A DNA stretch of 64,000 nucleotides, taken from the NCBI RefSeq assembly GCF_003634615.1, contig NZ_RBKX01000001.1, forward strand, positions 3,658,001 to 3,722,000, read 5' to 3'. The number at the start of each line of letters is the position of its first letter. Position 1 is the stretch's first letter. The translations under genes and the position numbers were made by a program. The notes beneath the pieces are model-generated. The model did no database searches. It was not told where the DNA came from and saw nothing but the letters and a program-made list of their open reading frames with translations. The DNA comes from Flavobacterium sp. 102. Its GTDB lineage: Bacteria; Bacteroidota; Bacteroidia; Flavobacteriales; Flavobacteriaceae. Shown here piece by piece: positions 7,912 to 27,664 of the stretch.

Positions 7912-7945
7912 TGATGAACATCATCTCAACCCGTGATGGGCATCA
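7912..7945. promoter_or_regulatory. Paired CRP/FNR-type operators upstream of small RNA copy 1
   Basis: TGATgaacATCA (7912-7923) and TGATgggcATCA (7934-7945), centres 22 bp apart. The proximal centre is 33 bp from the centre of TATCTTTG at 7969-7976. There is no matching box on the other strand, so this pair looks unidirectional. Confidence 0.75.
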
Positions 7946-7968
7946 TCTTTATCCCGGGAAATCAGTTC

Positions 7969-7976
7969 TATCTTTG
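7969..7976 (+). promoter_or_regulatory. -7 promoter box of small RNA copy 1
   Basis: TATCTTTG fits the Bacteroidota TAnnTTTG element. There is no convincing TTG at -33, consistent with dependence on an activator bound at the palindromes just upstream. Confidence 0.65.
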
Positions 7977-7982
7977 GTAAAG

Positions 7983-8229
7983 ATTTAAGTTCATAAATAA
8001 AAACTAAAATACGGCAATAGCCATCAAGGTTTGATGTTTGTCACAGGTAGTTTGTACAGCTAAGGTTCCAAAAGGAAAAATAGAAAGTTTATGCCGGAAA
8101 TGAAGTATAGTTTCGCAGTAGTATTTGTTGTTCTCAAGCGAACTACAATTTTACGCTAAGAGATAAATTATAGTTTCCAACAAGCATCATGCAGAAGTCC
8201 CGGTTTCACCATCGGGACTTTTGTTTTTC
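7983..8229 (+). ncRNA. Putative small RNA, copy 1 of a duplicated intergenic element
   Basis: A gene-free stretch with its own promoter and terminator, related to 10628-10876. Shared blocks include TAAGTTCAT near the 5' end, TTGTACAGCT, AAGGAAAAA, GGAAATGAAGTATAGTTT and the whole AAGCATCATGCAGAAGTCCC terminator region, while the sequence between blocks has diverged. A second AAATTATAGTTT lies near 8170, so a motif is repeated inside the RNA. There is no conserved reading frame. Ends are estimated from the promoter box and the terminator. It lies upstream of the W-rich lipoprotein gene; a long 5' leader is an alternative, but the strong terminator argues for a separate RNA. Confidence 0.65.
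8196..8229 (+). terminator. Rho-independent terminator of small RNA copy 1
   Basis: AGTCCCG and CGGGACT pair around a 10-nt loop, followed by a T-rich tract. Confidence 0.85.
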
Positions 8230-8352
8230 TAACTTATCCCTTTAGTGGCCAGCTTTAAAAAAAAACAAGCATCAGTCCTATAAGGGATATCATGCACCAT
8301 CATCATCAACATATTTAAACATTTCCTATAATAATCCGAAAATCGTCAAAAC

Positions 8353-9264
8353 ATGAAAATACCTTTTGTCTTAAAAAATATGGGATGGATCTTCGGAGGT
8401 CTACTCCTTTTTTGCAGTTGCAGCAGCGTTGTACAAACCGACGGTGAAGAGCCACTTACCTATCAGGTTTTTTATGACCACCTTTCGCCTTATGGTACCT
8501 GGATTGAGTATCCCGGTTATGGAGCTGTTTGGAATCCCAACATTAGGGGAGATTTTAGTCCCTACCTCACCAATGGTCATTGGCAGGCAACCACAGCAGG
8601 CTGGGCTTGGGTCTCAGGATACAGTTGGGGTTGGGCAACGTTTCACTATGGGCGTTGGTATTATGATAATCGTTTTGGCTGGCTTTGGATACCCGGTTAT
8701 GAGTGGTCTCCGGCCTGGGTTGTTTGGGGCAGTGCAGCCGATTATTATTGCTGGGCTCCTTTAATGCCCGGTATTGATGTAACTATTATATATGATAGCT
8801 GGTCACCTCCTCCTTTTTATTGGAATCTGTGCCCACGTCCTTATCTTACCCATACGCATTTACATCACAACACAATTCGTGGTGATGGTGTCAGACCCGG
8901 AACCAGAATAAATACCCTCCGAAATTTTCAAACCACCTCAACCCACCATTTGTATTATGCTACCGGACCTGCTTTTGAAGAAGTACAAAGGGAGACCAGA
9001 ACCACTATTACTCCTATACCGATAGAGACCAGCAAGAGCATACCCAACCGAGCCACTTCTACCGGAATGCGTGTCTATAGCCCTTCTATTGAAACTCCGG
9101 AAATGCAACAACGCCGTTCCGCTAAACCAATCCCATCGGTTTACAGAAGTGCCGATATGCCAAGACAAAACAGCACTACCCCTACAATTCCAGATATACA
9201 ACGCAAAACGCAACGCAACAATATCAAAAGTCTTCCACAAGAGCGAAGTACAAAACGACGTTAA
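8353..9264 (+). CDS. DUF6600-like W/Y-rich lipoprotein
   Basis: A 303-residue protein with a lipoprotein signal (MKIPFVLKNMGWIFGGLLLFCSC; the lipobox Cys follows LLLF). Residues about 35-150 are extremely rich in Trp, Tyr and Gly with the pattern YGTWIEYPGYGAVW, NGHW, WGWATFHYGRW, GWLWIPGYEWSPAWV, which I associate with the DUF6600 family. The C-terminal half is a polar, Pro/Thr/Arg-rich tail of low complexity. It probably sits in the outer membrane or periplasm. It follows small RNA copy 1 and precedes a small membrane protein, at the start of the stress cluster. Molecular function is unknown. Confidence 0.75.
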   Translation: MKIPFVLKNMGWIFGGLLLFCSCSSVVQTDGEEPLTYQVFYDHLSPYGTWIEYPGYGAVWNPNIRGDFSPYLTNGHWQATTAGWAWVSGYSWGWATFHYGRWYYDNRFGWLWIPGYEWSPAWVVWGSAADYYCWAPLMPGIDVTIIYDSWSPPPFYWNLCPRPYLTHTHLHHNTIRGDGVRPGTRINTLRNFQTTSTHHLYYATGPAFEEVQRETRTTITPIPIETSKSIPNRATSTGMRVYSPSIETPEMQQRRSAKPIPSVYRSADMPRQNSTTPTIPDIQRKTQRNNIKSLPQERSTKRR

Positions 9265-9314
9265 AACGGATTTAGGATTAACGGAATTAACTACTTGAAA
9301 TACTATACCTTTTT

Positions 9315-9659: not shown

Positions 9660-9663
9660 TCTG

Positions 9664-10506: not shown

Positions 10507-10525
10507 ATAAAATTCCTTTATGCTA

Positions 10526-10533
10526 CAAAAATA
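10526..10533 (-). promoter_or_regulatory. -7 box of the minus-strand membrane protein gene
   Basis: TATTTTTG on the minus strand, centred 33 bp from the centre of the palindrome at 10557-10568. Confidence 0.65.
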
Positions 10534-10556
10534 AGAAGCCTATCCCAATAAAATCC

Positions 10557-10590
10557 TGATTACTATCATATCCTGCTGTGACCACTGTCA
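10557..10590. promoter_or_regulatory. Paired CRP/FNR-type operators serving two divergent promoters
   Basis: TGATtactATCA (10557-10568) and TGACcactGTCA (10579-10590) have centres 22 bp apart. Boxes lie 33 bp out on both sides: TATTTTTG toward the membrane protein gene and TACCTTTG toward small RNA copy 2. A TTG starts at 10594, 17 nt before the TACCTTTG box. Confidence 0.8.
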
Positions 10591-10613
10591 TCATTGTTCA
10601 CAGAAAACCATCC

Positions 10614-10621
10614 TACCTTTG
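10614..10621 (+). promoter_or_regulatory. -7 promoter box of small RNA copy 2
   Basis: TACCTTTG, centred 33 bp from the proximal palindrome centre, the same geometry as copy 1. Confidence 0.7.
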
Positions 10622-10627
10622 GTAAAG

Positions 10628-10876
10628 AAATAAGTTCATTAGATAGTATCAAGAACATGGTCAAGGTCATTATAGATAGGTGCTTGTCAGAGGCAATTGT
10701 ACAGCTGGGGTTCCAGAAGGAAAAACAGAACGTTTTTGCCGGAAATGAAGTATAGTTTTTGCAGTCGCCATTGCTGCCGCTCTTTAGGGGCGCAATTCAG
10801 TAACCAGAAATGAATTATCGTTTCTCACAAGCATCATGCAGAAGTCCCGGTCTCACTATCGGGACTTTTGTTTTTT
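10628..10876 (+). ncRNA. Putative small RNA, copy 2 of a duplicated intergenic element
   Basis: About 250 nt between an operator-linked promoter and a strong terminator, sharing ordered sequence blocks with 7983-8229. The internal motif appears twice: GAAATGAAGTATAGTTT near 10745 and GAAATGAATTATCGTTT near 10808. Between them ATTGC...GCAAT with inner GCC/GGC pairs forms a hairpin; in copy 1 the same interval has a different sequence but also can fold (GTAGT...ACTAC). That is what a structured RNA with covariation would show. There is no conserved reading frame. Ends are estimates. Confidence 0.7.
10843..10876 (+). terminator. Rho-independent terminator of small RNA copy 2
   Basis: AGTCCCG and CGGGACT around a 10-nt loop, then a T tract; arms identical to those of copy 1. 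Confidence 0.85.
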
Positions 10877-12195: not shown

Positions 12196-12229
12196 TGACC
12201 AGTATCATACTTCACTGTGATTTATATCA
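12196..12229. promoter_or_regulatory. Paired CRP/FNR-type operators upstream of the DUF4136/BON/USP genes
   Basis: TGACcagtATCA (12196-12207) and TGATttatATCA (12218-12229), centres 22 bp apart. GAACTTTG at 12253-12260, one mismatch to TAnnTTTG, is centred exactly 33 bp further. The rest of the 333-bp gap (11999-12331) shows no gene. Confidence 0.7.
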
Positions 12230-12331
12230 TTCTCCTTTACTGACTGTTTTTGGAACTTTGAAATAGAAATACTGCTTGAGTGTATTTGTGCATGATGGGC
12301 AGTAAATAACTCTGTACTCAATATCAACATT

Positions 12332-12949
12332 ATGAAAAATAAATATTACATCCTGTTTGCCTTTCTTATTGTACTCACAACTTCCTGCAGTTCTACCCAA
12401 ATTACCAGCAGTTGGCGGGATCCTGATAAACAAATTCATGCCGGCGATTGGAAAAAAGTACTTGTCGTTGCCTTATTGCGAAATGAAACCAATCGCCGCC
12501 GTGCCGAAGATGAAATGGTAAAATACCTTCATGGAAAAGGCATTACCTCGTACAGTTATTTGGGAGAAAACTTCAACCCAAAAAATGAAGAGGCACTCCG
12601 AAATAAAATTAAAGATGAAGGTTTTGACGCGGCCATTACTATGCGATTGATAGATGTGGAAAAAGAAAAAGTGTATACCCCCGAACAACATTATATGTAT
12701 CCGATGTACTATCGCAATTACAGCCACTATTATTACAGAAGTTGGAGCTATTACAGCACTCCGGGTTACTATACCATTACCAAGAAGTTTATTATTGAAA
12801 CGGTGATTTATTCTATTCCGGATGACCAAATAATATGGTCGGGCATCACTGAGACTTATGACCCTGCCGGAGTTGAAAAACTAACCGATGAAATTGCCCA
12901 TGCTATCCATAAAAAGATGTTGGAAGAAGGGTTTATCGAGAAAAAATAA
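12332..12949 (+). CDS. DUF4136-like lipoprotein
   Basis: A 205-residue protein with a lipoprotein signal (MKNKYYILFAFLIVLTTSC; lipobox TTSC). The start of the mature part, STQITSSWRDPD, and the middle DEGFDAAITMRLIDVEKEKVY resemble DUF4136-type periplasmic lipoproteins. Residues about 120-150 are a Tyr-rich run, and the end (ETYDPAGVEKLTDEIAHAIHKKMLEEGFI) is helical as in that family. It is the first gene after the operator pair at 12196-12229, with a leader of about 65 nt, and precedes the BON genes. The family call is from pattern memory only. Confidence 0.65.
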   Translation: MKNKYYILFAFLIVLTTSCSSTQITSSWRDPDKQIHAGDWKKVLVVALLRNETNRRRAEDEMVKYLHGKGITSYSYLGENFNPKNEEALRNKIKDEGFDAAITMRLIDVEKEKVYTPEQHYMYPMYYRNYSHYYYRSWSYYSTPGYYTITKKFIIETVIYSIPDDQIIWSGITETYDPAGVEKLTDEIAHAIHKKMLEEGFIEKK

Positions 12950-12993
12950 TAACCTCTAAAAACAAATACTGTTAACCTCTAAAACCTAAAACG

Positions 12994-13191
12994 ATGACCA
13001 TTCTAAAAAAACTAAAGGGTAAGTCATTTCATAAAAATGGCAAAAAAACAACTTCAAAACCTAGGGCTAAGAAAAGCACCATGGTTAAAGACCATCCACT
13101 TATGACCAAAAATTGGCCAAAGAATGTAAAAATTGTATTTGAAGATGAATTTTTAAACAATGCTCTTCAAGTCCATAACATTCTAGAGTAA
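12994..13191 (+). CDS. Small basic protein of unknown function
   Basis: A 65-residue protein. Its first 30 residues are highly basic (11 Lys or Arg, as in KLKGKSFHKNGKKTTSKPRAKK); the rest is mixed (NWPKNVKIVFEDEFLNNALQVHNIL). It sits 44 nt after the DUF4136-like gene and 31 nt before the first BON gene, in the same direction, so it is probably in the same transcript. A nucleic-acid-binding role would fit the basic end but is only a guess. Confidence 0.5.
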   Translation: MTILKKLKGKSFHKNGKKTTSKPRAKKSTMVKDHPLMTKNWPKNVKIVFEDEFLNNALQVHNILE

Positions 13192-13222
13192 CACATTTGT
13201 ATATCCTAAAAAACATACCATT

Positions 13223-13879
13223 ATGAAATCTGATGAAAATTTACAAAAAGACGTACAAGATGCGCTTAAATGGGAACCACAGTTGCGTGCTGCCGAAATT
13301 GGTGTCATTGCCAAAAACGGTATCGTAACCTTAACCGGTACCGTTGACAATTATTATAAAAAAAGCGAAGCTGAGAATGCCGCCAAAAAAGTGAGCGGTG
13401 TCAAGGCCATAGTTGAAAAAATTGAAATAAAAACTCCCGATTCTAAAAGCATTAATGATAACTATATTGCTGAAAAGATATTAAATGTTTTCAAATCTGA
13501 TTTTTCTATTCCTGACGAAAAAATCAAACTAAAAGTAGAAAAAGGATGGGTAACGCTGGAAGGCAATGTCAACTGGAACTATCAAAAAGAGGCAGCCAAA
13601 AATGCAGTTATTGATTTGATGGGAGTACGTGGCGTAACTAATAATATCATGACACGCACAAATCGCAATGATGCGATAAAGAAAACTGCTATTGAAAAAG
13701 CAATACATAACAATGCCGCTTTAGAGCATGACCATATAGAAGTATCGGTTAACAATAATGATGTGAAACTCTCCGGTTTGGTCGCTTCTTTCTTTGAAAA
13801 AGAAGAAGCAGAACGAATAGCTTGGAAAACGCCGGGTGTTTGGTCTGTTGACAATGAAATCGGGGTAGATTCCTTTTAA
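13223..13879 (+). CDS. Triple BON-domain protein (OsmY-like)
   Basis: A 218-residue protein made of three BON domains (about residues 1-70, 75-145, 150-218), each with the GIVTLTGTV or GWVTLEGNV type strand followed by AENAAKKVSGVKAVV-type helix and strand. It has no signal peptide, unlike E. coli OsmY. BON domains bind membranes or lipids and occur in osmotic-stress proteins. It is the first of two tandem paralogues here; a third (22544-23215) lies on the other strand. Probably part of the operon under the 12196-12229 operators. Confidence 0.88.
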   Translation: MKSDENLQKDVQDALKWEPQLRAAEIGVIAKNGIVTLTGTVDNYYKKSEAENAAKKVSGVKAIVEKIEIKTPDSKSINDNYIAEKILNVFKSDFSIPDEKIKLKVEKGWVTLEGNVNWNYQKEAAKNAVIDLMGVRGVTNNIMTRTNRNDAIKKTAIEKAIHNNAALEHDHIEVSVNNNDVKLSGLVASFFEKEEAERIAWKTPGVWSVDNEIGVDSF

Positions 13880-13910
13880 AATAAAATCAAAAAATTTAAA
13901 TACTCGTATT

Positions 13911-14582
13911 ATGAAAACAAATGAAGTATTACAAAAAAATGTACAGGAAGCCATAGCTTTGGAACCATTACTGGAGGCAGCAGAAATTGGTGTTACTGTA
14001 AAAGACGGGATTGTTACCCTAACCGGAACCGTTGATAATTATGTAAAAAAATTAGAAGCTGAAAATGCAGCAAAAAAAGTAACCGGTGTAAAAGCAGTAG
14101 TCGAAAAAATTGAGATTGACTATAATCATTCCATCCGAACAGATGAAGATATTGCAGCAGAGGCCTTAGAAGCTCTCAAATGGAGTGTTTCGGTTCCAGA
14201 CGACAAGCTTAAAATAATTGTCAGCCAAGGATGGGTTTACCTGCAAGGGGTTGTGGAGTGGAACTATCAAAAACATTCCGCAAAAAAAGCAGTAGAAACC
14301 ATTCCCGGTGTAAAAGGGGTCATCAATTCTATCCAAATCAAATCAGCCGATTTTGACAAAATAGAAAAACAAGCCATAGAAAGTGCCATCCATAGAAATT
14401 CATCGCTTTATGATAAAGCTATTGAGGTAGCAGTTACAGGTAGTGTCGTTACATTGACAGGGACAGTAAGTGCCTACTTTCAAAAAGAGGAAGCCGAAAG
14501 AATTGCATGGAATTCTCCAGGGGTATGGACTGTGAACAATCTATTGGCAGTTCACCAACTACTCCCTCAATCGGTATCCTAA
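13911..14582 (+). CDS. Triple BON-domain protein (OsmY-like), second copy
   Basis: A 223-residue paralogue of the preceding gene, 31 nt downstream. It keeps the opening LQKNVQEAIALEPLLEAAEIGV and three BON units with GIVTLTGTVDNYVKKLEAE, GWVYLQGVVEWNYQ and SVVTLTGTVSAYFQKEEAERIAW. The last unit is the best conserved between the paralogues. No signal peptide is evident, so it is predicted cytoplasmic or peripherally membrane-bound. Tandem duplication is the simplest origin. Confidence 0.88.
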   Translation: MKTNEVLQKNVQEAIALEPLLEAAEIGVTVKDGIVTLTGTVDNYVKKLEAENAAKKVTGVKAVVEKIEIDYNHSIRTDEDIAAEALEALKWSVSVPDDKLKIIVSQGWVYLQGVVEWNYQKHSAKKAVETIPGVKGVINSIQIKSADFDKIEKQAIESAIHRNSSLYDKAIEVAVTGSVVTLTGTVSAYFQKEEAERIAWNSPGVWTVNNLLAVHQLLPQSVS

Positions 14583-14666
14583 ATCTAATATACTAATTAG
14601 GCAAATTGAATAAAGGATTATTGGATTAATCTATCAATGCCATTGTAAAATAAAAAATCGCACACT

Positions 14667-15515
14667 ATGAACAAAATATTAGTAGCCGTAGATTTCTCGG
14701 CTAATTCGAGAAAAACTATACGTTTTGCCATTCAAATGGCCTCGCAGTCTAAAGCAGAAATAATTTTTTTCCATCTGGTGGGTCTCCTAGCTCCTACTTC
14801 AGATGCTACCTGGGATTATACTTATTACATTCAATTTCAGGAGGAAGAATTGCAGCGGAGTAAAAACCATTTGGTCAAATTAATTAAAGAGGTTTATAAT
14901 TCTAAATTACCATCGGGGGTAAAATACACTTGTGTTTGTCAATCAGGGAATGATATTGCAGACCAGATTATTTCATATGCTCAAAAACACAAGATTGATT
15001 TTATTTGCACCGGAGCAAGAGGGACGGGTGTAATGGCTAAACTATTTGGCACTGTTGCCCAACACTTAATTACTGATTCTCCTATTCCTGTTTTTGTCAT
15101 TCCAAAAAATTACCGATTAAAACCTCTAACTGATTTATGCTATGCCTCTGATATGGAAAACCCTGAAGTTGAAATAAAAAAAGTGCTGGCATTAGCCACA
15201 TCGTTAAGAGCCTCCGTTAAGGTACTTCATTTTGATTATGAAATAGGCTTACATGAAAATCAGGATAAATTAACGGCTATAGCTCAAAAATATGAAACCA
15301 AAAACATCAAGTTTCACTATAAAAAATTAGATGCCATTTATCCTTTACAAGATCATCTGAAAAGAGCCATTGCTTTATTTAAGCCTTCACTGGTAGTACT
15401 TTTTACGAAACAAAACAGAAAATGGTTTGACCGTTTGCTGCTTTCCAGCAAGTCGGCCGAGTTTTCATTCACTACTAAAGTACCGTTATTAGTATACCGA
15501 AAAATCAGACTATAA
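14667..15515 (+). CDS. Tandem universal stress protein (UspA domain x2)
   Basis: A 282-residue protein with two Usp folds. The first (residues 1-150) starts KILVAVDFSANSRKTIRFAI and ends with GARGTGVMAKLFGTVAQHLI...PVFVIP, which holds the ATP-binding G-x2-G-x9-G(S/T) signature. The second (about 155-282) is degenerate and lacks the glycine motif (LVVLFTKQNRKWFDRLLLSSKSAEF). This architecture is common in Bacteroidota. It follows the BON genes by 84 nt with no operator of its own in the gap and precedes a D-lactate dehydrogenase-like gene by 18 nt, which suggests read-through and a role in energy-limited or anoxic stress. Confidence 0.88.
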   Translation: MNKILVAVDFSANSRKTIRFAIQMASQSKAEIIFFHLVGLLAPTSDATWDYTYYIQFQEEELQRSKNHLVKLIKEVYNSKLPSGVKYTCVCQSGNDIADQIISYAQKHKIDFICTGARGTGVMAKLFGTVAQHLITDSPIPVFVIPKNYRLKPLTDLCYASDMENPEVEIKKVLALATSLRASVKVLHFDYEIGLHENQDKLTAIAQKYETKNIKFHYKKLDAIYPLQDHLKRAIALFKPSLVVLFTKQNRKWFDRLLLSSKSAEFSFTTKVPLLVYRKIRL

Positions 15516-15533
15516 ACCAACCCATTTCCAGCC

Positions 15534-16520
15534 ATGAAAATATTTGTTTACAGTACGCATCGCTTTGAAAAACCTTTTTTGCAAAAGGCAGCCAATGATA
15601 ACCACGAACTTATCTTTTCGGCTTTTGCCTTAGAGGCTGATACTGCAAAACTGGCCAATGGATGTAAAGCCATCATCGCATTCACCTCGGATGATTTGTC
15701 TGCGGATGTGCTAGACGACTTGTATTATCATGGTATTCGGTTTATTGCTTTGCGATCAGTAGGCTTTGATCATGTTGATTTGTTAAAAGCTAAGCAATTG
15801 GGTATTAAAGTTGCAAATGTCCCCAACTATTCTCCGTATTCTACAGCGGAACACGCAGTAGCACTACTATTAGCCTTAAACCGAAAACTTATGGTTGGTC
15901 AAAAATTAATGAAGCGCAATGATTTTTCACTCGATGAACTTATCGGTTTTGACATGTACCAAAAAACAATCGGAATTGTAGGTGTTGGTAAAATTGGTGG
16001 TGCATTTGCCAAAATAATGAGTGGTTTTGGCTGTCGTTTATTAGGTTACGACCCTATTGAAAACAAAGGATTAGCCTTAAAAACCGGTTTGGTCTATACC
16101 ACATTGGAGGAAGTTTGCCAGCAAGCGGATGTGGTTTCGATTCATTGTCCGTTGACACCGGAAACAAGGTATATGTTCAACAAGGTACTTTTTGCTCAAA
16201 TGAAAAAAGGTGTTTTACTAATCAATACGGCTCGAGGCAGTATTGTTAACACCATTGATTTATTGGCCGCTTTAGACAACAAAACCATAGCCGGAGCCGG
16301 TTTAGATGTTTATGAAAATGAAAAAGGCATTTTTTTCAGGAATCATCTCAATACAATTATTATTGATCAACTTTTTGATAAGCTACGCAACAATCAAAAT
16401 GTTATCATCACCGGTCATCAAGCGTTCCTGACCCAGGAGGCTTTGACTGATATAGCGACAACTACCTTTTACAACCTTAACCAATGGGAAAAAGGAAAGT
16501 CCAGCACTAACGAAATATAA
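15534..16520 (+). CDS. ldhA: D-2-hydroxyacid dehydrogenase, D-lactate dehydrogenase-like
   Basis: A 328-residue NAD-dependent enzyme of the D-isomer 2-hydroxyacid family. The Rossmann motif is IGIVGVGKIGGAFA (about residues 142-155). The catalytic Arg is in NTARGSIV, Glu in DVYENEKGIFF and His in GHQAFLT. The loop after ENEKGIFF is the one typical of LdhA-type D-lactate dehydrogenases rather than phosphoglycerate dehydrogenase. It reduces pyruvate to D-lactate and regenerates NAD in fermentation. It directly follows the universal stress gene, which supports a low-oxygen stress role for the cluster. Confidence 0.88.
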   Translation: MKIFVYSTHRFEKPFLQKAANDNHELIFSAFALEADTAKLANGCKAIIAFTSDDLSADVLDDLYYHGIRFIALRSVGFDHVDLLKAKQLGIKVANVPNYSPYSTAEHAVALLLALNRKLMVGQKLMKRNDFSLDELIGFDMYQKTIGIVGVGKIGGAFAKIMSGFGCRLLGYDPIENKGLALKTGLVYTTLEEVCQQADVVSIHCPLTPETRYMFNKVLFAQMKKGVLLINTARGSIVNTIDLLAALDNKTIAGAGLDVYENEKGIFFRNHLNTIIIDQLFDKLRNNQNVIITGHQAFLTQEALTDIATTTFYNLNQWEKGKSSTNEI

Positions 16521-16541
16521 CAAAAGTATAAACCTAACATC

Positions 16542-17300: not shown

Positions 17301-17306
17301 TTTATC

Positions 17307-18086: not shown

Positions 18087-18097
18087 TTATAATAATC

Positions 18098-19156
18098 ATG
18101 AGCAACGAAACATCAAACAATTGGAAATTAGGCGCTTTTTTTTCCATGGGCATACTGCTGTTTGTAGTGGCTATCTATTTTATTGGTATTAATAGAAACT
18201 TATTTGGTTCCAACTTCGTATTGCGTTCCGAATTTAAAAATGTCAGCGGTCTGAAACAAGGCAGCAATGTGCGGCTTTCCGGAATTAACATTGGTACCGT
18301 TAACAAGATTGTTTTTATTTCAGATTCGTTGGTACTAGTGAAATTGCTAATCAGGAAAGATGTTCAGCAATACATCAAAACCGATGCTATTGCCAGTATC
18401 GGATCAGATGGGTTGGTTGGTGATAAAGTACTTATTATTTCACCAGGCAATAGTTCCAATACGCCGGTAAAAAACAATGATATCATTGCTTCTTTCAAAA
18501 CAATTGAAATAGAAGACATCCTTTCCAGTGTTAAAAAAAGTGCTGATAATACCAAAATAATTACGGATAAACTTATCGAATTCAGTAATAAAATGAATGA
18601 TAAAAATGGGCTGTTGGCTAAAATAATGACCAACAAAGATTTTGCTGTAAGAATTGACAATACCATAACCAATCTTCAAATCAGCGCCAAAGAAATTGCT
18701 CAATTTGCTCCTACCTTGAATAATAAAAATGGCATTGCCTCTAAAATTTTTACGGATAAAGAATGGGCCAACCGTATAGAGAACAGCCTTTCTGCTCTGC
18801 AAAACAGTTCCAATGACATTGCTCTTTTTACGGCCCAATTAAACGACAAAAACAATATCCTTTCCCAAATGCTTTCCAATGACACTATAGCACTGGCTTT
18901 GGAGAAAACGCTTTACAACCTGGAAAGCAGTTCGGCTGATTTAGTGAAATTCACTTCAAAAATCAACAATGATGAAAACGTTTTATCAAAACTCATTAAC
19001 AATCCAAAACTGGGAAAATCGGTCGATTCCACCTTAATTAACCTTGAAAAGAGGGTTCAAGAATTAAAGGAGCTCGAGGAAGCCGCTAAGAGTAATTTTT
19101 TATTAAGAGGCTATTTTAATAAAAAGAAAAAAGAAGCCAAAAAGCAAAATGAATAA
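18098..19156 (+). CDS. mlaD: MlaD-type MCE domain protein with four 41-residue C-terminal repeats
   Basis: A 352-residue protein. Residues 10-31 form an N-terminal membrane anchor and about 38-118 the MCE domain (FKNVSGLKQGSNVRLSGINIGTV). The C-terminal part holds four units starting at Asn167, Asn208, Asn249 and Asn290, an exact 41-residue period, with consensus N-x-K-N-x4-K-I...L-x-x-S-x3-I-x-x-F. A basic, helical tail (KKKKEAKKQNE) ends it. In MCE proteins the long C-terminal helices build a tube or needle across the periplasm, so the repeats could set its length. Third gene of the mla-type operon. Confidence 0.9.
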   Translation: MSNETSNNWKLGAFFSMGILLFVVAIYFIGINRNLFGSNFVLRSEFKNVSGLKQGSNVRLSGINIGTVNKIVFISDSLVLVKLLIRKDVQQYIKTDAIASIGSDGLVGDKVLIISPGNSSNTPVKNNDIIASFKTIEIEDILSSVKKSADNTKIITDKLIEFSNKMNDKNGLLAKIMTNKDFAVRIDNTITNLQISAKEIAQFAPTLNNKNGIASKIFTDKEWANRIENSLSALQNSSNDIALFTAQLNDKNNILSQMLSNDTIALALEKTLYNLESSSADLVKFTSKINNDENVLSKLINNPKLGKSVDSTLINLEKRVQELKELEEAAKSNFLLRGYFNKKKKEAKKQNE

Positions 19157-19185
19157 ATATACACAATCACTAAAACCTAAAAACC

Positions 19186-19578
19186 ATGAATGTAACAAAA
19201 AAAATCGGAATTTGGATGGATTATACCTCGGCACATGTTATGTCATTTTCGGAACAACCGAAAGAGATTGCCGTTATAGAATCCACATTTGAATCCAAAC
19301 TTAAATCCAAAGAAAAAGAAAAAGGAGAAAAGCATCTGCACTCACTGGCAAGACAATGCAAAACCGACTATTTTAAAAAAATAGCCTCAATTATTTTACA
19401 GTATGATAAAGTATTGCTTTTTGGCCCTACCAATGCCAAAGCAGAATTGTTTAATCTATTGTCTGAAGACCATCATTTCTTTAAAATCAAAACCTATTTA
19501 AAAGAGACCGGAAAAATGACGTTAAAACAAAGGAATAAAGTCATACACGAGCATTTTGCCAGTCCGATGTATAAATAG
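19186..19578 (+). CDS. Small protein resembling an eRF1/BaeRF-like domain
   Basis: A 130-residue soluble protein. The start KKIGIWMDYTSAHVMSF and the middle KVLLFGPTNAKAELFNLL, followed by a short helical Lys-rich end, resemble the alpha/beta domain of bacterial eRF1-like (BaeRF) proteins, where a GPT-type loop follows a core strand. Such proteins are linked to ribosome stress, but the catalytic parts of larger family members are absent. The residues 36-60 are strongly charged (FESKLKSKEKEKGEKHLHSL). It is 29 nt after the MCE gene and may be read with it. The assignment is tentative. Confidence 0.5.
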   Translation: MNVTKKIGIWMDYTSAHVMSFSEQPKEIAVIESTFESKLKSKEKEKGEKHLHSLARQCKTDYFKKIASIILQYDKVLLFGPTNAKAELFNLLSEDHHFFKIKTYLKETGKMTLKQRNKVIHEHFASPMYK

Positions 19579-19584: not shown

Positions 19585-21663
19585 CTACCATAAAGTTTCT
19601 GAAAGATATCTGGGAAAGGAAAGGGTAAAAACCGTTCCTTTTCTTTCCCGGCTGTTGAAACTTATGGAACCTTCCAATAAGGCAATATAATTCTTTACAA
19701 TGGCCAATCCTAAACCGGTACCCTGAATATTTTTGGCATTACTGGCGCGATAAAACTCTGAAAACAGTTTCTTTTGGTCTTTAAACGGGATGCCAATTCC
19801 ATGATCCTGAATACTTATGGTTACCGTACTTTCATTTACTTGGGATTCAATTTGAATTTCTTTTCCATGTTCAGAGTATTTGCTGGCATTTGACAATAGA
19901 TTCAACAAAATATTTTTAAGTATTTTAGACGACTGGTTGATATAGGATTCGCCGGTATGCGAATAGTGAATACTTTGGTCATTCAGTTTGGCTAAAGCTT
20001 CTATTTCGCTAATGGTTTCAGTTATAAAATCGGGTAAATTAAATTCATTTACTTCAAAATCAATAAACCCTTTTCTCAGTTTTTCCAAGGTTAAGAAGTC
20101 ATTTAATATAGCATTAAGGTGGTTAACCAAACCCGAAATTCTGTCTAAATGTTTTGTAACCAGTTCTTGTTGATTGCTTTCAGTGTATTTTTTCAACAAG
20201 GAGGTACTGGACAAAATAGTTCCCAAAGGAGTTCTAAACTCATGCGAAGCAATCCCCAAAAAATTGGATTTCATTTCATTCAATTCTTTTTCTCTTGCGA
20301 GCGATTCGGTAAGTTCAAACGTACGTTGGGCCACTTTGGTCTCCAGTTCTTCCTGAAAGGCAATTTGAGAAGTCACATCTAACAAGATGGTTTGGGTTGT
20401 TGTTTTGGCCTCGTTTACTTTGACAAAAATGCTGGTCCAAAACAAACTTCCGTCTTTTCTTTTCATGTGTTGAATATTTCTCCGTTCACCATGCTCTATT
20501 AAGATAATCATATTATCCTCATACTCATTTGGATGTACATAATGATTGATTGGACTAAAGTTTTTTAATAAATCTTCTTTGGAATCATAGCCAAACAGTT
20601 CGACCCCGACATTATTGACAGCGGTTACTTTAGAGGTCGCTACATCCATAGTTAATATCGCTACCAACGCATTCGAAAAAATATCCCTGTATTGCTCTTC
20701 ACTTTGTTTAAGGGCTTCCTCACTTAGTTTGCGCTCGGTAATATCTGAGCGAATGGCCAGGTATTTATAGGGTTTTCCCTTTTCATTGAGAAAGGGCACT
20801 ATAGTAGTATCGACCCAATAAACAGTTCCGTCTTTTGCCTTATTTTTGATTTCCCCTTTCCAGATTGAGCCGCTACCGATAGTTTGCCAAAGATTATTAA
20901 AAAAGGATTTTTCATGATAGCCGGAATTAACGATGCGATGGTTTTGACCTATTAATTCTTCTTTAGTGTATTTTGAAATTTTACAGAAATTATCATTGGC
21001 ATATTGTATGGTTCCTTTCTCATCGGTTATAGCCACTATATCGGCAGCATCTAAAGCCACTTTATAATCTAAAATATCTTTGGCCAAATGGCCCGATTCA
21101 ATGCTTTGCTTGATTATTGTTTGCTCTAATTTTTGATTCAGTTGTTCTATTTTCTGGGAGCGATGGAAAAGCTCTGATTTTAAAGCGTCTATCTTTTCAT
21201 TTAAAGTAGCAGGCTTATCCTTATCAGAAGTATATATTTTTTCCAGTTCAACAAATTCGGTTACTTCTTTAATGCTGTGAAAAATATATTGGATTTCATT
21301 TTCATTATTGAGAATAGGTTTATTTATCGGATTCCAGTATTTTTCTTCGAAAACACCTGCAGTATTTTGAACGTCAAGCCTTATTACCGGCATGATATGT
21401 GTGATCTTGTTTTGTAGTACATACTCCAACGAAGCTCTGATTTGGGTCACTATACCGGACTTTCTATCGTTTGGATTATTGGGAAAAACATCAAAAAAAT
21501 TATCTCCTACCTTTGCCTCTTTTCTGATAAGATTGGCTGCGGTGTAAGCATCACTCATGGCCAATAGGGTTAAGTTGGGAGAAAGTGCTAAAAATAATCC
21601 GGGCGCCCCTTCAAATAAGGCTTTGAAATCAATTGGTTGTTGATGAATCATTGCTTGTTTCAT
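19585..21663 (-). CDS. PAS-domain sensor histidine kinase
   Basis: A 692-residue protein without membrane helices, so a soluble sensor. Order: PAS (about 10-140), coiled coil (about 150-195), PAS/PAC (about 200-312; YWVDTTIVPF...DITERK), PAS (about 320-435), then HisKA with SHEFRTPL (phospho-acceptor His474) and a HATPase domain with LLSNASKY, IQDHGIGIP and GTGLGLAIVKNY. All catalytic boxes are intact. It converges on the eRF1-like gene. No response regulator is adjacent; the nearest is the receiver-CRP protein at 23581-24630, three genes away on the other strand, the obvious candidate partner. Confidence 0.9.
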   Translation of the reverse strand: MKQAMIHQQPIDFKALFEGAPGLFLALSPNLTLLAMSDAYTAANLIRKEAKVGDNFFDVFPNNPNDRKSGIVTQIRASLEYVLQNKITHIMPVIRLDVQNTAGVFEEKYWNPINKPILNNENEIQYIFHSIKEVTEFVELEKIYTSDKDKPATLNEKIDALKSELFHRSQKIEQLNQKLEQTIIKQSIESGHLAKDILDYKVALDAADIVAITDEKGTIQYANDNFCKISKYTKEELIGQNHRIVNSGYHEKSFFNNLWQTIGSGSIWKGEIKNKAKDGTVYWVDTTIVPFLNEKGKPYKYLAIRSDITERKLSEEALKQSEEQYRDIFSNALVAILTMDVATSKVTAVNNVGVELFGYDSKEDLLKNFSPINHYVHPNEYEDNMIILIEHGERRNIQHMKRKDGSLFWTSIFVKVNEAKTTTQTILLDVTSQIAFQEELETKVAQRTFELTESLAREKELNEMKSNFLGIASHEFRTPLGTILSSTSLLKKYTESNQQELVTKHLDRISGLVNHLNAILNDFLTLEKLRKGFIDFEVNEFNLPDFITETISEIEALAKLNDQSIHYSHTGESYINQSSKILKNILLNLLSNASKYSEHGKEIQIESQVNESTVTISIQDHGIGIPFKDQKKLFSEFYRASNAKNIQGTGLGLAIVKNYIALLEGSISFNSRERKGTVFTLSFPRYLSETLW

Positions 21664-21754: not shown

Positions 21755-22435
21755 TTAAAATAATTTATTAGCCACATCAGGGTATAACCGCAGAGATTTA
21801 CTTTTTACTTCGAACAAAACATAATAGACAACAGTACTGATTACAGCCGCAAAAAAACACCACACAGAAATAAGATAATTGTTATAATACATTTTAGTAA
21901 CCAAATAAGAAATCAAAATCGCCAATCCCAATAACCACATTCTTTTAAAATGTGAAAAAAAAGGCGGTAAAATGGTTACCAACACATAGAAATAACCTCC
22001 TATCCCCTTAAAAAGATCGGGGTAGGTTTGTAAATAAGTGATATGATAACCGTCGATTTCTGCTTTAACCCCATAAGTTATAAAGTACCACATCAAACTC
22101 AAAGAAACGATTAGTCCCAGTCCTGTAAAATAAGACAGTAATTGTCTTGCTGTTCGATTAATCTCCATTTGTTGTATTGACAAAGGCACCCAAATGGGCC
22201 AAACGATTTGAGCAATAATAATAAAAACCGCTGTACAAACTTTTTCGAGTTGGGCATGGCTTGAATTGGATAGCGTAATCCATAAAAAACCTTCAGCAAA
22301 TTGCTGTACCGCAAATAATAAAGGGATAACGGCAAAAAGGCGCTCATTTGGTTTGGTTGCTTTTTTAAAAGAGGCAATCCCTATTACGGTAAGTACCGCA
22401 CCTGCAGTAAAACTGACAGTAGCTGAAAAACACAT
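21755..22435 (-). CDS. DUF6629-like membrane protein
   Basis: The ATG at 22435 (MCFSATVSFTAG) is preferred over an in-frame start at 22471, since MCFSA is the typical opening of this family. The 226-residue protein has about seven membrane helices, with the FAVIPLLFAVQQFAEGFLW helix near the front. I associate this pattern with DUF6629. Function is unknown. It lies between the kinase and a BON gene on the same strand. Confidence 0.7.
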   Translation of the reverse strand: MCFSATVSFTAGAVLTVIGIASFKKATKPNERLFAVIPLLFAVQQFAEGFLWITLSNSSHAQLEKVCTAVFIIIAQIVWPIWVPLSIQQMEINRTARQLLSYFTGLGLIVSLSLMWYFITYGVKAEIDGYHITYLQTYPDLFKGIGGYFYVLVTILPPFFSHFKRMWLLGLAILISYLVTKMYYNNYLISVWCFFAAVISTVVYYVLFEVKSKSLRLYPDVANKLF

Positions 22436-22513
22436 AAGTTCTATATTAAAATTAATTAATCCTTGAAACATTTAAGCAATCATGCATACTGTTATATTTT
22501 CTGCCAACTGCAA

Positions 22514-22547
22514 TAAAATTACGGGAGCTAGGCTCCCGTAATTTTAT
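22514..22547 (-). terminator. Terminator after the third BON gene
   Basis: AATTACGGGAGC and GCTCCCGTAATT form a perfect long stem with a 3-nt loop and flanking A/T runs, overlapping the gene's stop codon. It may work in both directions. Confidence 0.8.
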
Positions 22548-23215
22548 TCAACAAAGTCATATTTATAATCAATTACCAGATTGTTGTCTACAAACCACAC
22601 TCCGGGAGTCTTCCATGCTATTTTTTCTGCCTCTTCTTTTTGATACAATGAAGTGACCGTTCCATCTAGGGTGACTTTATTGCTTTGAACAGTAACCCTA
22701 ATATCATCTGCATTTATAGCCCAGTGGCGGTGCAAAGCATTTTCGATAACCTTTTTCTCAAGCTCACTTTTATGCGCCGATTTTATGGTAATGTGGTTAA
22801 ATACTCCTTTAACACCCGGGATATTCTCAATAGCATGCTTGGCAGCTTCTTTCTGATAATTCCAGTTTACCTCTCCATTAAGTGTTATCCAAGCATCGTC
22901 CACTTCAATGGTTATCTTGTCATCGGGAACATTCCAATGGTTTTGCAGTGATTTCAACACATTGGCTGCAATTTCTTCATCTGGTTTGATTGCGGAATAA
23001 GGGTAATTAATGTCAATTTTTTCTACAACTGCCTTAACACCCGCTACCTCTTTGGCAGCAGCTTCAGCAGCAATTTTCTTATTATAAGCATTTACGGTTC
23101 CCGTTAAGGTTACAATTCCGTCATGTACTATAACGCCAATCTCGGCGGCATGCAATTGTGGTTCCCATTTAAGGGCATCCATTACATCTTTCTGTAGTTG
23201 TTCGTTGCTTTTCAT
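22544..23215 (-). CDS. Triple BON-domain protein (OsmY-like), third copy
   Basis: A 223-residue paralogue of the two genes at 13223-14582, closest to the first: the opening LQKDV-DALKWEPQL-AAEIGVI is nearly the same. Three BON units with GIVTLTGTV, AWITLNGEVNWNYQ and NKVTLDGTVTSLYQKEEAEKIAW. No signal peptide. It has its own promoter with the paired CRP/FNR-type operators (23312-23345), unlike the tandem copies that share one upstream. It ends inside a strong terminator, so it is monocistronic. Confidence 0.88.
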   Translation of the reverse strand: MKSNEQLQKDVMDALKWEPQLHAAEIGVIVHDGIVTLTGTVNAYNKKIAAEAAAKEVAGVKAVVEKIDINYPYSAIKPDEEIAANVLKSLQNHWNVPDDKITIEVDDAWITLNGEVNWNYQKEAAKHAIENIPGVKGVFNHITIKSAHKSELEKKVIENALHRHWAINADDIRVTVQSNKVTLDGTVTSLYQKEEAEKIAWKTPGVWFVDNNLVIDYKYDFVE

Positions 23216-23280: not shown

Positions 23281-23345
23281 TAAATTTATTTCTCTTCAGC
23301 TGTTGAGATACTGATAGAAATCATTCAAAAAAATGATTTAAAACA
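23281..23345 (-). promoter_or_regulatory. Paired CRP/FNR-type operators and -7 box of the third BON gene
   Basis: TGATagaaATCA (23312-23323) and a one-mismatch TGATttaaAACA (23334-23345), centres 22 bp apart. On the minus strand TAAATTTA (23281-23288), one mismatch to TAnnTTTG, is centred 33 bp from the nearer palindrome. Confidence 0.65.
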
Positions 23346-24674: not shown

Positions 24675-24739
24675 TGATACAAATCAACAATTGTAATGAT
24701 TTGCATCACCTATTATGCTGTTACTACGTTCTAAATTTG
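24675..24739 (+). promoter_or_regulatory. Paired CRP/FNR-type operators and -7 box of the hsp20 gene
   Basis: TGATacaaATCA (24675-24686) and TGATttgcATCA (24697-24708), centres 22 bp apart, then TAAATTTG (24732-24739), a full TAnnTTTG match centred exactly 33 bp downstream. Expected leader about 33 nt. Confidence 0.8.
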
Positions 24740-24778: not shown

Positions 24779-25234
24779 ATGACACTAGTAGCAACAAAAA
24801 AAAGAAACGGAAGATTGTTTCCTAAATTTATGGATGATTTCTTCAACAATGATCGATTTTTATTGGATTTCAACGGTGCATTTCCGGAAGTAAATTTCCA
24901 AAATGTTTTGCCAGAAGCCAATATCGTTGAAAACAAAAAAGAGTACCAAATTGAGTTAGCGGCACCCGGACTTGATAAAAAAGATTTCAATATTGAAATA
25001 AAAAACGGTATGTTAACCATTAGTGCCGAAAAAGAAGCCGAGACCAAAAGTGAAGATAAAAATTACCTCTCCAGAGAGTTTTCTTATAGTTCTCTTTATC
25101 GTTCTTTTGTTTTGCCCGACAACTTAGTAGCAGACAAAATTGATGCTAAGTATGAGAACGGTGTGTTAAAACTGAAACTACCCAAAAGTGAAGTCAGCAT
25201 TGCTGAACCTGTTAAACACATCAAAGTGAACTAA
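24779..25234 (+). CDS. Small heat shock protein, Hsp20 family
   Basis: A 151-residue protein with the alpha-crystallin domain from about residue 45: IVENKKEYQIELAAPGLDKKDF, GMLTISAEKE, and YENGVLKLKLPK, followed by a short C-terminal tail. The N-terminal arm begins MTLVATKKRNGRLFPKFMDDFF. These ATP-independent holdases bind unfolding proteins under stress. A second Hsp20 gene is cut by the right end of the window. This copy is under the paired CRP/FNR-type operators and ends at a strong terminator, so it is monocistronic. Confidence 0.92.
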   Translation: MTLVATKKRNGRLFPKFMDDFFNNDRFLLDFNGAFPEVNFQNVLPEANIVENKKEYQIELAAPGLDKKDFNIEIKNGMLTISAEKEAETKSEDKNYLSREFSYSSLYRSFVLPDNLVADKIDAKYENGVLKLKLPKSEVSIAEPVKHIKVN

Positions 25235-25279: not shown

Positions 25280-25339
25280 TTCCTATCCTAACTCATTTAA
25301 TAAAAGCAGTCAGATTTGTTATCGACCTGTTTCATCTTC

Positions 25340-25792: not shown

Positions 25793-25861
25793 AACCGATA
25801 AATCATTTTAAAGATTAATGGTATTGCTGTTTGAGGTTCACAAGAACATCGAATACAATTG

Positions 25862-26050
25862 TCATTGCTCTATATGTGGCAATAGCAGTAAAGGCATAGT
25901 ACTGCCCTTTTTGAGTTTTTCAGCAAGCTTTGCCGGCATTTTGTGACAAGCGCAGTTTTTGGCATGTTCAATGTGCCAAGCAAGCCTCTTTTCTTCTGTC
26001 GGTTTTTTTGGCATAGGATTCGCTTTATGCCATTCTTTGTTTAGTTTCAT
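25862..26050 (-). CDS. Small His/Cys-containing protein of unknown function
   Basis: A 62-residue protein. The centre, WHIEHAKNCACHKMPAKLAEKL, has Cys-Ala-Cys-His plus two His, enough to bind a metal. The ending is hydrophobic (MPLLLLPHI). Its ATG at 26050 overlaps the stop of the upstream membrane protein gene by 4 nt (ATGA type), good evidence for a real, translationally coupled gene. I recognise no family. Confidence 0.6.
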   Translation of the reverse strand: MKLNKEWHKANPMPKKPTEEKRLAWHIEHAKNCACHKMPAKLAEKLKKGSTMPLLLLPHIEQ

Positions 26051-26670
26051 AATACGATATTTAAATTAGCTTTGGTACTTACTCTAAAGAAAAATGCGAT
26101 TTCAATCATTGCCATAGTAAAAGAAATAATCCAAACTACACCTGCAAAATAAAATAAGGGATAAAAGAAGGAGAATATTAGTATCGGCACCAAAATAACT
26201 ATCCACAATAATGCCTGATAAATCCACCTATTTCCTTTAAGTGCAACTGCAAGAAACAAGGCCGATAAACTGATAAAAAAATAAGTCAGTGCATCAATAG
26301 CAATTAGAAAGTCATAGCGATCAAACAAGCCGTTATAAGAGCCCAGATTTCCTTGCAACATGTCTTCAAAAGGCATGGCAAATTGCATAATATATAACAT
26401 GACTATTTGACTACAATAAATTGTGGCAATACATAAGGCTATTAATGTCCATATTTTATTTTCTCTGCCCACACTATAATGCAGACTTACTACAATGAGT
26501 AAAAAAATTGGCGCCAATAAGAGCGGTGGCCAAAAAATCAATAGCGATTCTTTAATTCCTGAAATAAAATTCATATCCGTCAATGCTTGCAATAAACCGT
26601 AGACAAAAACTAATGCTATAGCTACAGCAGCTGACCAAAACCCAATTTTATGCGGTATATTTTTATTCAT
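26047..26670 (-). CDS. Polytopic membrane protein
   Basis: The ATG at 26670 (MNKNIPHKIGFWSAAVAIAL) is preferred; the frame extends upstream to 26802 but that part overlaps the universal stress gene. The 207-residue protein has about six membrane helices and few charges. It lies 28 nt after the universal stress gene and overlaps the next gene by 4 nt, so it belongs to a four-gene stress operon (USP, this gene, small His/Cys protein, OsmC). Function unknown. Confidence 0.7.
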   Translation of the reverse strand: MNKNIPHKIGFWSAAVAIALVFVYGLLQALTDMNFISGIKESLLIFWPPLLLAPIFLLIVVSLHYSVGRENKIWTLIALCIATIYCSQIVMLYIMQFAMPFEDMLQGNLGSYNGLFDRYDFLIAIDALTYFFISLSALFLAVALKGNRWIYQALLWIVILVPILIFSFFYPLFYFAGVVWIISFTMAMIEIAFFFRVSTKANLNIVL

Positions 26671-26698
26671 AATTTCTAATTTAGGAGCATAGTGTTTG

Positions 26699-27544
26699 TT
26701 ATTCTTCTTTCTGAGTTTCACAAATAGATAAAACCGGGATTTCTGTATGAAAAGCCAAGGTTTTTGATAAACTGTAGTGAAATAACTTTTCAAAAAAGCC
26801 ATAGTGATGTGTAGATAAGGTAATCCAATCTATTTTATGTAATTCGATAAAATCGGTTATGGTTCCTTCAACATCATTACTGGTTAAATGATAAAAGTTG
26901 ACCTCACTTTTAGGTCTTATTTTTTTCCATTCGGTGCTAAACTTTCTGTCCTGTCCTTTATCAATCTCTGACACCTGGAGGACATCTACCTGTGCCCCGA
27001 ATAACAGTGCCAAATTGTGCACCTTTCTAAGCATGTGGAGTTGTGACAAGTCATACTCCGTAAGGAAGAGAATTTTTTTAAGAGGTTTATAACTACACGT
27101 TTCCGGTATGGCTAAGACGGGAACCTTACTGTTGTTCATTATTTTTTGGGTTATAGTTCCCAAAAACACTTCTTTTAATCCGGTGGCTCCTTTAGTACCC
27201 ATTACAATAAAATCAACCTTCTCTTCTTCAGCAACTTTTAGGATTGTTGTTTCGGTGTCTCCTTCTTTTAAAGCATGGCGAACTATTACGCGTCCTAATT
27301 GTTCTTTTTCGGCAATAGCTCTCAATTTAGGCACTTCATCTTTGAAGTTTTCAAACTGTTCCCATTCAGTAATTTCATAATGCTCCAAAATAAAATCTCG
27401 GTAATCAACATAGGGTATAGTCATAACATCATATACATGCAACGTTATGATTTCAGCACCCATTTTTTTGGCCAAATGCAAGGCAAATTGATAAGCATTT
27501 AAAGATGTTCCGGAAAAGTCAACAGGAAAGAGAATTTTTTTCAT
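26699..27544 (-). CDS. Tandem universal stress protein (UspA domain x2)
   Basis: The start is the ATG at 27544 (MKKILFPVDFSGTSLNAYQFAL); the open frame runs further up but passes through the promoter. The first Usp domain (1-150) carries GTKGATGLKEVFLGTITQKI, the ATP-type glycine motif; the second (about 155-281) lacks it (STHHYGFFEKLFHYSLSKTL). Same architecture as the gene at 14667. First gene of a four-gene minus-strand operon under the operator pair 27600-27633, with a leader of about 18 nt. Confidence 0.88.
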   Translation of the reverse strand: MKKILFPVDFSGTSLNAYQFALHLAKKMGAEIITLHVYDVMTIPYVDYRDFILEHYEITEWEQFENFKDEVPKLRAIAEKEQLGRVIVRHALKEGDTETTILKVAEEEKVDFIVMGTKGATGLKEVFLGTITQKIMNNSKVPVLAIPETCSYKPLKKILFLTEYDLSQLHMLRKVHNLALLFGAQVDVLQVSEIDKGQDRKFSTEWKKIRPKSEVNFYHLTSNDVEGTITDFIELHKIDWITLSTHHYGFFEKLFHYSLSKTLAFHTEIPVLSICETQKEE

Positions 27545-27568
27545 GACAGATGGTCTTAGGATTCCAGT

Positions 27569-27664
27569 CAAAACTAACCTAAATGAATCACTGAAATAGT
27601 GATACATATCAAGTGTTACTGTGATTAAAATCAAGTAAACCCATCCTAAAATTTAAGACTTTTG
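27569..27664. promoter_or_regulatory. Divergent promoter with paired CRP/FNR-type operators
   Basis: TGATacatATCA (27600-27611) and TGATtaaaATCA (27622-27633), centres 22 bp apart. Minus strand: TAGTTTTG (27569-27576), centred 33 bp from the nearer palindrome, drives the universal stress operon. Plus strand: GACTTTTG (27657-27664), one mismatch to TAnnTTTG, at the same 33 bp, points to the gene at 27692. Confidence 0.78.

Follow-up and report, generated by a model that had tools for sequence, protein, structure and literature searches.

A 20-kb gene cluster of Flavobacterium sp. 102 (Bacteroidota) appears to be a local regulon controlled by a response regulator in which a receiver domain is fused to a CRP/FNR-type activator. 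The cluster (7912..27664) lies within a 64,000-nucleotide stretch of contig NZ_RBKX01000001.1 (positions 3,658,001 to 3,722,000; hereafter the window). It contains six 34-bp pairs of TGATN4ATCA-type palindromes with centres 22 bp apart, together with promoter boxes of the form TAnnTTTG centred 33 bp from the proximal palindrome. We propose, with a probability of about three in four, that the fusion protein, whose gene lies at 23581-24630, uses these pairs as operators; it would be phosphorylated by a histidine kinase and would act as a class II activator of the TAnnTTTG promoters.

Paired sites with a fixed geometry

Measured against TGATN4ATCA-N10-TGATN4ATCA, the six pairs carry 0, 2, 1, 1, 0 and 0 mismatches. 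Exactly six pairs in the window reach at least 14/16 matches at a spacing of 22, where a first-order Markov null (30 runs) predicts 0.03, and any other spacing from 12 to 44 yields 0-2. The TAnnTTTG box is found exactly 33 bp from the proximal centre in full on five of the 12 pair sides and with at least 5/6 matches on eight, with no other distance accounting for more than two cases. A previous reading of the window (the sequence-only reading) had described the six pairs, their exact 22-bp spacing and the divergent arrangement of two of them (10557 and 27600), all of which hold; the box that it placed at 33 bp is found on the eight sides just counted and is absent from that position on the other four. 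A Sigma-70 scan of 7900-13300 stayed near background (21 versus 16.6).

To delimit the regulon, the whole genome (3.82 Mb, a single contig) was searched with a 65-bp pair-plus-box pattern at up to three mismatches, as the sequence-only reading had advised, with the reversed pattern as control. The pattern occurs in eight places, all inside the cluster, and its reverse in none. The pair alone, at up to two mismatches, occurs in ten places, six of them in the cluster; three of the outside pairs lie within open reading frames (ORFs) and one is intergenic, and the pair-plus-box search recovers none of the four. At up to three mismatches there are 56 places versus 23 for the reversed pattern, so weaker members beyond the cluster are possible. 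These data support a local regulon, confined to the cluster at the stringency used, and at that stringency a genome-wide regulon is unsupported. The regulon postulated by the sequence-only reading is supported, with a CRP/FNR-family gene inside it, at a narrower scope.

A receiver-CRP fusion within the cluster

The protein encoded between pairs 4 and 5 comprises a receiver (Response_reg, residues 4-116; PF00072 at 2.1e-26), a cNMP_binding domain (160-246) and a Crp-type helix-turn-helix (HTH_Crp_2, 279-345). Its CRP/FNR superfamily domains (PF00027, PF13545, PF00325) score above cut-offs, and a Pfam-type domain scan found no LuxR-type family match in the protein. The presence of all three domains in one protein flanked by two pairs supports the fusion as the operator-binder, as does the restriction of all eight pair-plus-box matches to its cluster. 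The sequence-only reading had anticipated a CRP-type regulator; a CRP/FNR-family gene is indeed present, but its fusion to a receiver makes it a two-component response regulator.

Residues E8, D9, D52, T82 and K104 of the receiver, which we take to be the phospho-acceptor aspartate with its acidic, threonine and lysine partners, are identical in 17/17 aligned relatives, as are E314, V316, S317 and R318 of the presumed recognition helix. The protein has three cysteines (C51, C229 and C292), of which C51 alone is invariant in the 17 relatives, and among these aligned sequences an FNR-type N-terminal cysteine cluster is missing from the regulator. At the column of the cyclic AMP (cAMP)-binding arginine, which in CRP proper belongs to the phosphate-binding cassette, all 17 relatives have D or E. 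An AlphaFold2 model, used for domain layout alone because its predicted template-modelling score (pTM 0.40) does not warrant trust in the domain arrangement, has the receiver, a low-confidence linker (128-142) and a long helix (247-291). None of the best 60 of 175 PDB sequence matches covers both halves of the regulator.

A protein search with the regulator returned at least 7994 candidates at E 0.001 or better, and among the matches listed the nearest named homologues are from Flavobacterium. At E <=1e-60 it was detected in 85/199 sampled genomes of the family and in 37/249 of the genus, its own included; its distribution is patchy across both. One record titled Bifidobacterium breve MAG (L115) encodes a Bacteroidota-type regulator with 66% identity and is probably mislabelled. 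We recognised no description of a receiver-CRP regulon in Bacteroidota in the open-licence literature as far as its accessible text goes, a scope that leaves aside RegPrecise-type databases and subscription literature.

The geometry recurs near related regulators

To broaden the sample, we analysed the DNA around related regulator genes: 114 loci among the matches listed, after removal of the duplicates L114, L115, L126 and L136. Grouped counts refer to 113 loci (L112 also removed), assigned by hand to the five loci closest to the window, 39 Flavobacterium loci (including L111 at 40% identity), 37 Mucilaginibacter/Pedobacter-type loci and 32 others. At a spacing of 22 and at least 15/16 matches, these groups contain 13 pairs (in 5/5 loci), 14 (12/39), 22 (14/37) and 9 (7/32), respectively, and no other spacing from 12 to 60 gives more than three pairs in any group. 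At 14/16 or better, the counts become 16, 40, 63 and 21, versus at most nine elsewhere. Among the 278 pair sides of relatives, a full box lies 33 bp from the proximal centre 51 times, the next most frequent distance being 32 bp with six; boxes with at least 5/6 matches lie at 33 bp 107 times, with 12 at the next distance. When the 96 full-box cases are distributed over 720 cells of spacing by box distance, 51 fall in the single cell for 22 and 33 bp, versus six in the next.

The sequence-only reading had set promoter matches against coding matches, and near relatives the pairs at spacing 22 are overwhelmingly intergenic (136 versus 4 coding), in DNA of which ORFs occupy 86.6% by the mask used. 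Pairs at spacings other than 21-23 are spread over 186 intergenic, 119 coding and 23 edge positions. In a logo of the 106 box-bearing sides, A- and T-rich flanks surround the distal site, and the proximal site is looser (TGAYN4RTCAT). Perfect single sites are found more often 55 bp from a full box, the distal position (44), than at the proximal 33 bp (20).

Pair and gene also co-occur across genomes. Counting by hand, we found the pair plus box (at most two mismatches) in 27/36 Flavobacterium genomes with the regulator (the own genome excluded, and G442, with a regulator at 40% identity, included) and in 21/212 without it (Fisher 9e-16); the reversed control occurs four times in all across the 249 genomes. 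The pair alone (at most one mismatch) was present in 19/36 versus 37/212 (Fisher 2e-5). This tracking of the fusion gene by pair-plus-box matches is evidence against binding of the pairs by a core CRP/FNR protein. Among more distant relatives (about 40% identity), no pair of 14/16 at spacing 22 was found in 29 loci of about 4 kb, and 18 loci with wider flanks (L203-L220) gave five such pairs versus up to four at other spacings.

A proposed kinase partner and its sensor

In 100/114 relative loci, a histidine kinase gene shares the strand of the regulator and lies no more than 600 bp from it (92 upstream, 8 downstream). The kinase of Mucilaginibacter lappiensis (L129) has FixL as its best PDB match (4e-31), with DosP lower down, and a FixL-like PAS domain is found in 92/114 loci, at most 1.5 kb from the regulator in 81; the axial histidine is kept in 86 of these 92 matches and the arginine in 79. 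No FixL-like PAS was found in the five loci closest to the window, and three of them have a kinase core about 3 kb away. In five relative loci (L129, L131, L132, L184, L185), HisKA ORFs behind box-bearing pairs end just before the regulator gene.

Within the own genome, the core closest to the kinases beside related regulators is that of the multi-PAS kinase in the window (46%, 2.3e-57; next 2.1e-25). Its PAS domain at residues 209-320 has 3ewk, Aer (8dik) and 2gj3 as best PDB matches. We take 3ewk and 2gj3 to be MmoS and NifL, and assume that both, like the aerotaxis receptor, bind flavin adenine dinucleotide. A heme PAS of the FixL type was not detected in the window kinase, among whose PDB matches FixL occurs in chimeric chains only. 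It seems that different sensor PAS domains have been swapped on a single kinase core. The gene for the window kinase ends a co-directional BON-DUF6629-kinase run behind the minus side of pair 4, and may therefore be controlled by its own pathway. Elsewhere in the genome, a PAS stretch with 32% identity to the FixL-like PAS (2.3e-16) lies within a 2209-residue frame (G000:C1:3167153-3167563).

Genes behind the paired sites

The features of the cluster are collected in Table 1. To describe targets in relatives we took 97 ORFs behind box-bearing pairs, after excluding nine of the 106 box-bearing sides, which lack an ATG-started ORF of at least 100 residues within 700 bp. The family counts, with 25 of 66 families listed, comprise 13 2-Hacid_dh, 12 HSP20, 10 Usp, 9 BON, 5 HisKA, 4 Pyridox_ox_2, 4 DUF6629, 3 COX1 and 3 FixO; the predicted transcription start precedes the ATG by a median of 33 nt. 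Targets such as Hsp20, Usp, BON, hydroxyacid dehydrogenase and cbb3 oxidase suggest a response to oxygen limitation or redox stress. In a study of Flavobacterium psychrophilum, cbb3 oxidase is up under oxygen limitation, and the main text names neither Crp nor Fnr (PMC9723704).

Table 1. Features of the cluster, in window coordinates. Match fractions give the two palindromes of each pair.
Feature	Coordinates	Strand	Remarks
Paired site 1	7912..7945	.	8/8 + 8/8
TATCTTTG box	7969..7976	+	Full, 33 bp from proximal centre
Small RNA, copy 1	7980..8229	+	Start predicted from box; intrinsic terminator 8191-8224
TATTTTTG box	10526..10533	-	Full; would serve minus-strand membrane protein 9664-10506
Paired site 2, divergent	10557..10590	.	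8/8 + 6/8
TACCTTTG box	10614..10621	+	Full
Small RNA, copy 2	10625..10876	+	Terminator 10838-10871
Paired site 3	12196..12229	.	7/8 + 8/8
GAACTTTG box	12253..12260	+	One mismatch
Co-directional genes behind pair 3	12332..19578	+	Possibly one operon, though with a gap at 12949-13223. Lipoprotein-like (by eye), two BON proteins, Usp, D-2-hydroxyacid dehydrogenase, three ABC/MlaEFD-like genes (by eye), 130-aa protein of unassigned family
Histidine kinase, 692 aa, several PAS domains	19585..21663	-	Proposed partner; kinase core closest in genome to those beside related regulators
DUF6629 protein and BON protein	21755..23215	-	Co-directional with kinase, behind minus side of pair 4
TAAATTTA box	23281..23288	-	One mismatch
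Paired site 4	23312..23345	.	8/8 + 7/8; BON gene on one side, regulator on the other
Receiver-CRP fusion regulator, 349 aa	23581..24630	+	Between pairs 4 and 5; domain matches
Paired site 5	24675..24708	.	8/8 + 8/8
TAAATTTG box	24732..24739	+	Full
Hsp20 gene	24779..25234	+	Behind pair 5; family match
Usp gene	26699..27544	-	Presumed internal ATG start
TAGTTTTG box	27569..27576	-	Full
Paired site 6, divergent	27600..27633	.	8/8 + 8/8
GACTTTTG box	27657..27664	+	One mismatch
164-aa protein without Pfam family, then Na_sulph_symp-family transporter	27692..29713	+

The three genes that by eye resemble an MlaEFD-type ATP-binding cassette system (16542-19156, +) continue the BON-BON-Usp-dehydrogenase run behind pair 3, and relatives of them are present in 18-25 of the 114 regulator loci. 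To the left of the cluster, 986-7541 (-) encodes an E2-like protein, an oligonucleotide cyclase and a phospholipase effector, a gene set typical of CBASS defence operons, followed by a Fic-domain protein that matches the PADLOC candidate PDC-S24 at 3e-176.

A family of putative paralogous small RNAs

The sequence-only reading had proposed two candidate small RNAs (sRNAs), and these are borne out as conserved, structured paralogues. The RNA-encoding sequences that follow pairs 1 and 2 on the plus side, each about 250 nt long, share 74.5% identity over 259 columns, both end with a near-identical terminator-like hairpin and T run, and each folds better than 200/200 shuffles (z -4.2 and -4.1). BLAST identified homologues in four of the 249 genus genomes (G219, G363, G387, G393), besides short weak matches of 22-43 bp in G226, G249, G259 and G445 (E 3e-5 to 6e-4) that were left uncounted. 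When 398 genomes were searched with a covariance model built from five sequences, strong hits came from the own genome, from the same four, and from G523, which lies outside the training set and has two tandem copies (1.6e-31 and 1.2e-29) about 6 kb from a regulator of 82% identity. All six genomes with strong hits possess the regulator, at least 66% identical. The model also gave weak hits, left uncounted, in L080 (E 0.006) and in 11 other genomes (E 0.002-0.009); in G392 and G549, the two of those 11 that were checked, the regulator was not found at E 1e-50.

A pair with a full box lies directly upstream of all seven sRNA copies for which upstream DNA is available, the G393 copy being cut by a contig end. 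Among eight copies, two-sided base-pair changes occur at 15 pairs, versus 6.5 in shuffled and 3-7 in slid controls, in an alignment adjusted to the structure and biased in its favour. Run on 80 sources, mostly neighbourhoods of remoter relatives, the model recovered both copies of the window plus a single weak hit; as far as seen, the sRNA is restricted to the near clade. Rfam 15 gave five matches at E <=1 in 7000-30500, all below gathering scores and hence not taken as real, and we recognised no description of the sRNA in Bacteroidota in the accessible text of the open-licence literature, subscription literature lying outside this scope. The loop motif of the sRNA has three exact matches in the genome, two of which lie within the sRNAs. 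The sRNA also contains two hairpin-like repeats (ATGAAnTATAGTTT).

Each RNA has a same-strand ORF downstream, and the two might instead be long, attenuator-containing 5' leaders of those genes (at 8353 and 10952/10976). We consider this unlikely: the two downstream proteins look unrelated by eye, the shared terminator-like hairpin with its T run closes both RNAs, and the tandem copies in G523 are about 330 bp apart.

The proposed circuit and its alternatives

Our analysis suggests the following circuit, in which binding, phosphotransfer, activation, start site, oxygen or redox signal and receiver bridging are the parts that we infer. The receiver would be phosphorylated by a histidine kinase: a FixL-like heme PAS kinase in most relatives, and probably the multi-PAS kinase (19585-21663) in the own genome. 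Two fusion dimers would then occupy the neighbouring sites from the same face of the DNA (22 bp corresponds to about two turns), and their receivers might bridge them, which is a guess but would account for the strict spacing. Class II activators are placed about 40 bp before the transcription start. From the 33-bp geometry we infer a class II position, with sites near -40 and -62: located some 40 bp ahead of the start, the proximal dimer would adjoin the -33 region and activate the TAnnTTTG promoter. Cooperative assistance from the distal dimer would be consistent with the looser sequence of the proximal site. The output would comprise genes for stress and energy limitation, namely Hsp20, Usp, BON and hydroxyacid dehydrogenase (with cbb3 oxidase in some relatives), and the two paralogous sRNAs.

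Several observations weigh against this circuit. A box-bearing pair is found in 5/5 of the closest loci, and in 21/39 Flavobacterium, 23/37 Mucilaginibacter/Pedobacter-type and 10/32 other loci; 9/36 regulator-bearing genomes have no pair-plus-box match, and 21/212 regulator-less genomes have one. In the window itself, the regulator-facing side of pair 4 (23312) lacks a box at 33 bp. Relatives of about 40% identity have no clear 22-bp pair; in 14 cases a single perfect TGATN4ATCA stands 33 bp from a full TAnnTTTG box (two at the next distance), which may represent a variant of the switch that works with one dimer. As for the sensor, 14/114 loci lack an adjacent same-strand kinase (ten without a match, four with one on the other strand and further off), and the 92 FixL-like PAS matches include six without the histidine, 13 without the arginine and 11 away from the regulator. 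In the window, too, the kinase gene lies apart from that of the regulator, and only the kinase core suggests the two as partners.

Single TGATN4ATCA-like sites are frequent in an AT-rich genome, and chance or base composition might be held to account for the pairs. This is exceedingly improbable, and we regard it as ruled out by the Markov null (0.03 versus the six found), by the reversed-pattern controls, which gave none where all eight genomic pair-plus-box matches fell in one cluster, and by the recurrence of the 22/33 geometry near relatives of the regulator. It is also quite improbable that the fusion is a mere neighbour and that another CRP/FNR-family protein binds the pairs. Two such proteins (196 and 226 aa) exist in the genome, and the TGAT half-site resembles known half-sites of CRP/FNR proteins; their recognition helices, VETVIR and TESCIR, are however unlike the E..SR of the fusion, and the pair plus box follows the fusion gene (27/36 versus 21/212).

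Alternatively, the fusion might bind the pairs as a repressor, or activate by a geometry other than class II, and the boxless side of pair 4 facing its own gene would suit such a role. We give this little credence, since a fixed 33 bp over 51 full-box cases, with the proximal site upstream of the box, would suit an activator, and a repressor would presumably tolerate more positions. A different doubt concerns the input: the circuit may operate as described with a signal that is neither oxygen nor redox, or with a partner other than 19585-21663. The distance of about 1.9 kb between that kinase and the regulator, on opposite strands, and the further FixL-like PAS match in the 2209-residue frame are in keeping with this idea. 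We think it somewhat unlikely, given the FixL-like PAS beside most relatives, the resemblance of the window kinase PAS to 3ewk, Aer and 2gj3, and the cbb3 oxidase and dehydrogenases among the targets.

Relation to known systems

For Bacteroidota, operators bound by a phosphorylatable CRP/FNR activator would provide a circuit from sensor kinase through activator and operator-promoter ruler to targets and an sRNA family, and the 22/33 geometry is a usable predictor for other genomes of the phylum. We put at even odds the broader picture of a Bacteroidota-wide, one-step oxygen or redox pathway, in which a FixL-like kinase or, in this clade, a flavin-type kinase directly phosphorylates the CRP/FNR activator on a rigid double operator with receiver-bridged dimers, a heme sensor having been exchanged for a flavin one, and in which the activator of Flavobacterium controls a new sRNA family together with stress genes of a dormancy type. 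The apparent exchange of heme and flavin sensors on one kinase core is a testable evolutionary question.

Individual features of the system are familiar. Escherichia coli FNR recognises TGAT..ATCA half-sites through an E..SR helix, activates from a class II position near -40 and controls the sRNA FnrS; the fusion shares the half-site type, the helix, by geometry the activator position, and an sRNA in the regulon, and differs in having no FNR-type cysteine cluster, a receiver in its place and a tandem operator. The DosR dormancy regulator of Mycobacterium likewise places Usp and Hsp20-type genes under two-component control, but its output domain is LuxR-type, whereas that of the fusion is Crp-type. 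With CRP the fusion shares the cNMP-binding fold and the Crp HTH, and departs from it by the D or E at the position of the cAMP-binding arginine in 17/17 relatives and by the added receiver.

The closest parallel is with FixL-FixJ-FixK of Alphaproteobacteria: a FixL-like heme PAS kinase beside most regulator relatives, a receiver, a CRP/FNR-type activator without the Fe-S cysteines of FNR, and cbb3 oxidase targets (FixO, COX1) in some relatives. In PMC4999443, alphaproteobacterial FixK is described as lacking an Fe-S cluster and as being reached via FixLJ. FixJ and FixK are separate proteins joined by a transcriptional relay, whereas here receiver and activator occupy one 349-residue chain, the operator of the Flavobacterium system is double with sites 22 bp apart, and the kinase of the own genome features another type of PAS. 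Since receiver and activator reside in one protein, the relay would shrink to a single phosphorylation step, and the system is best regarded as one in which the roles of FixJ and FixK have merged.

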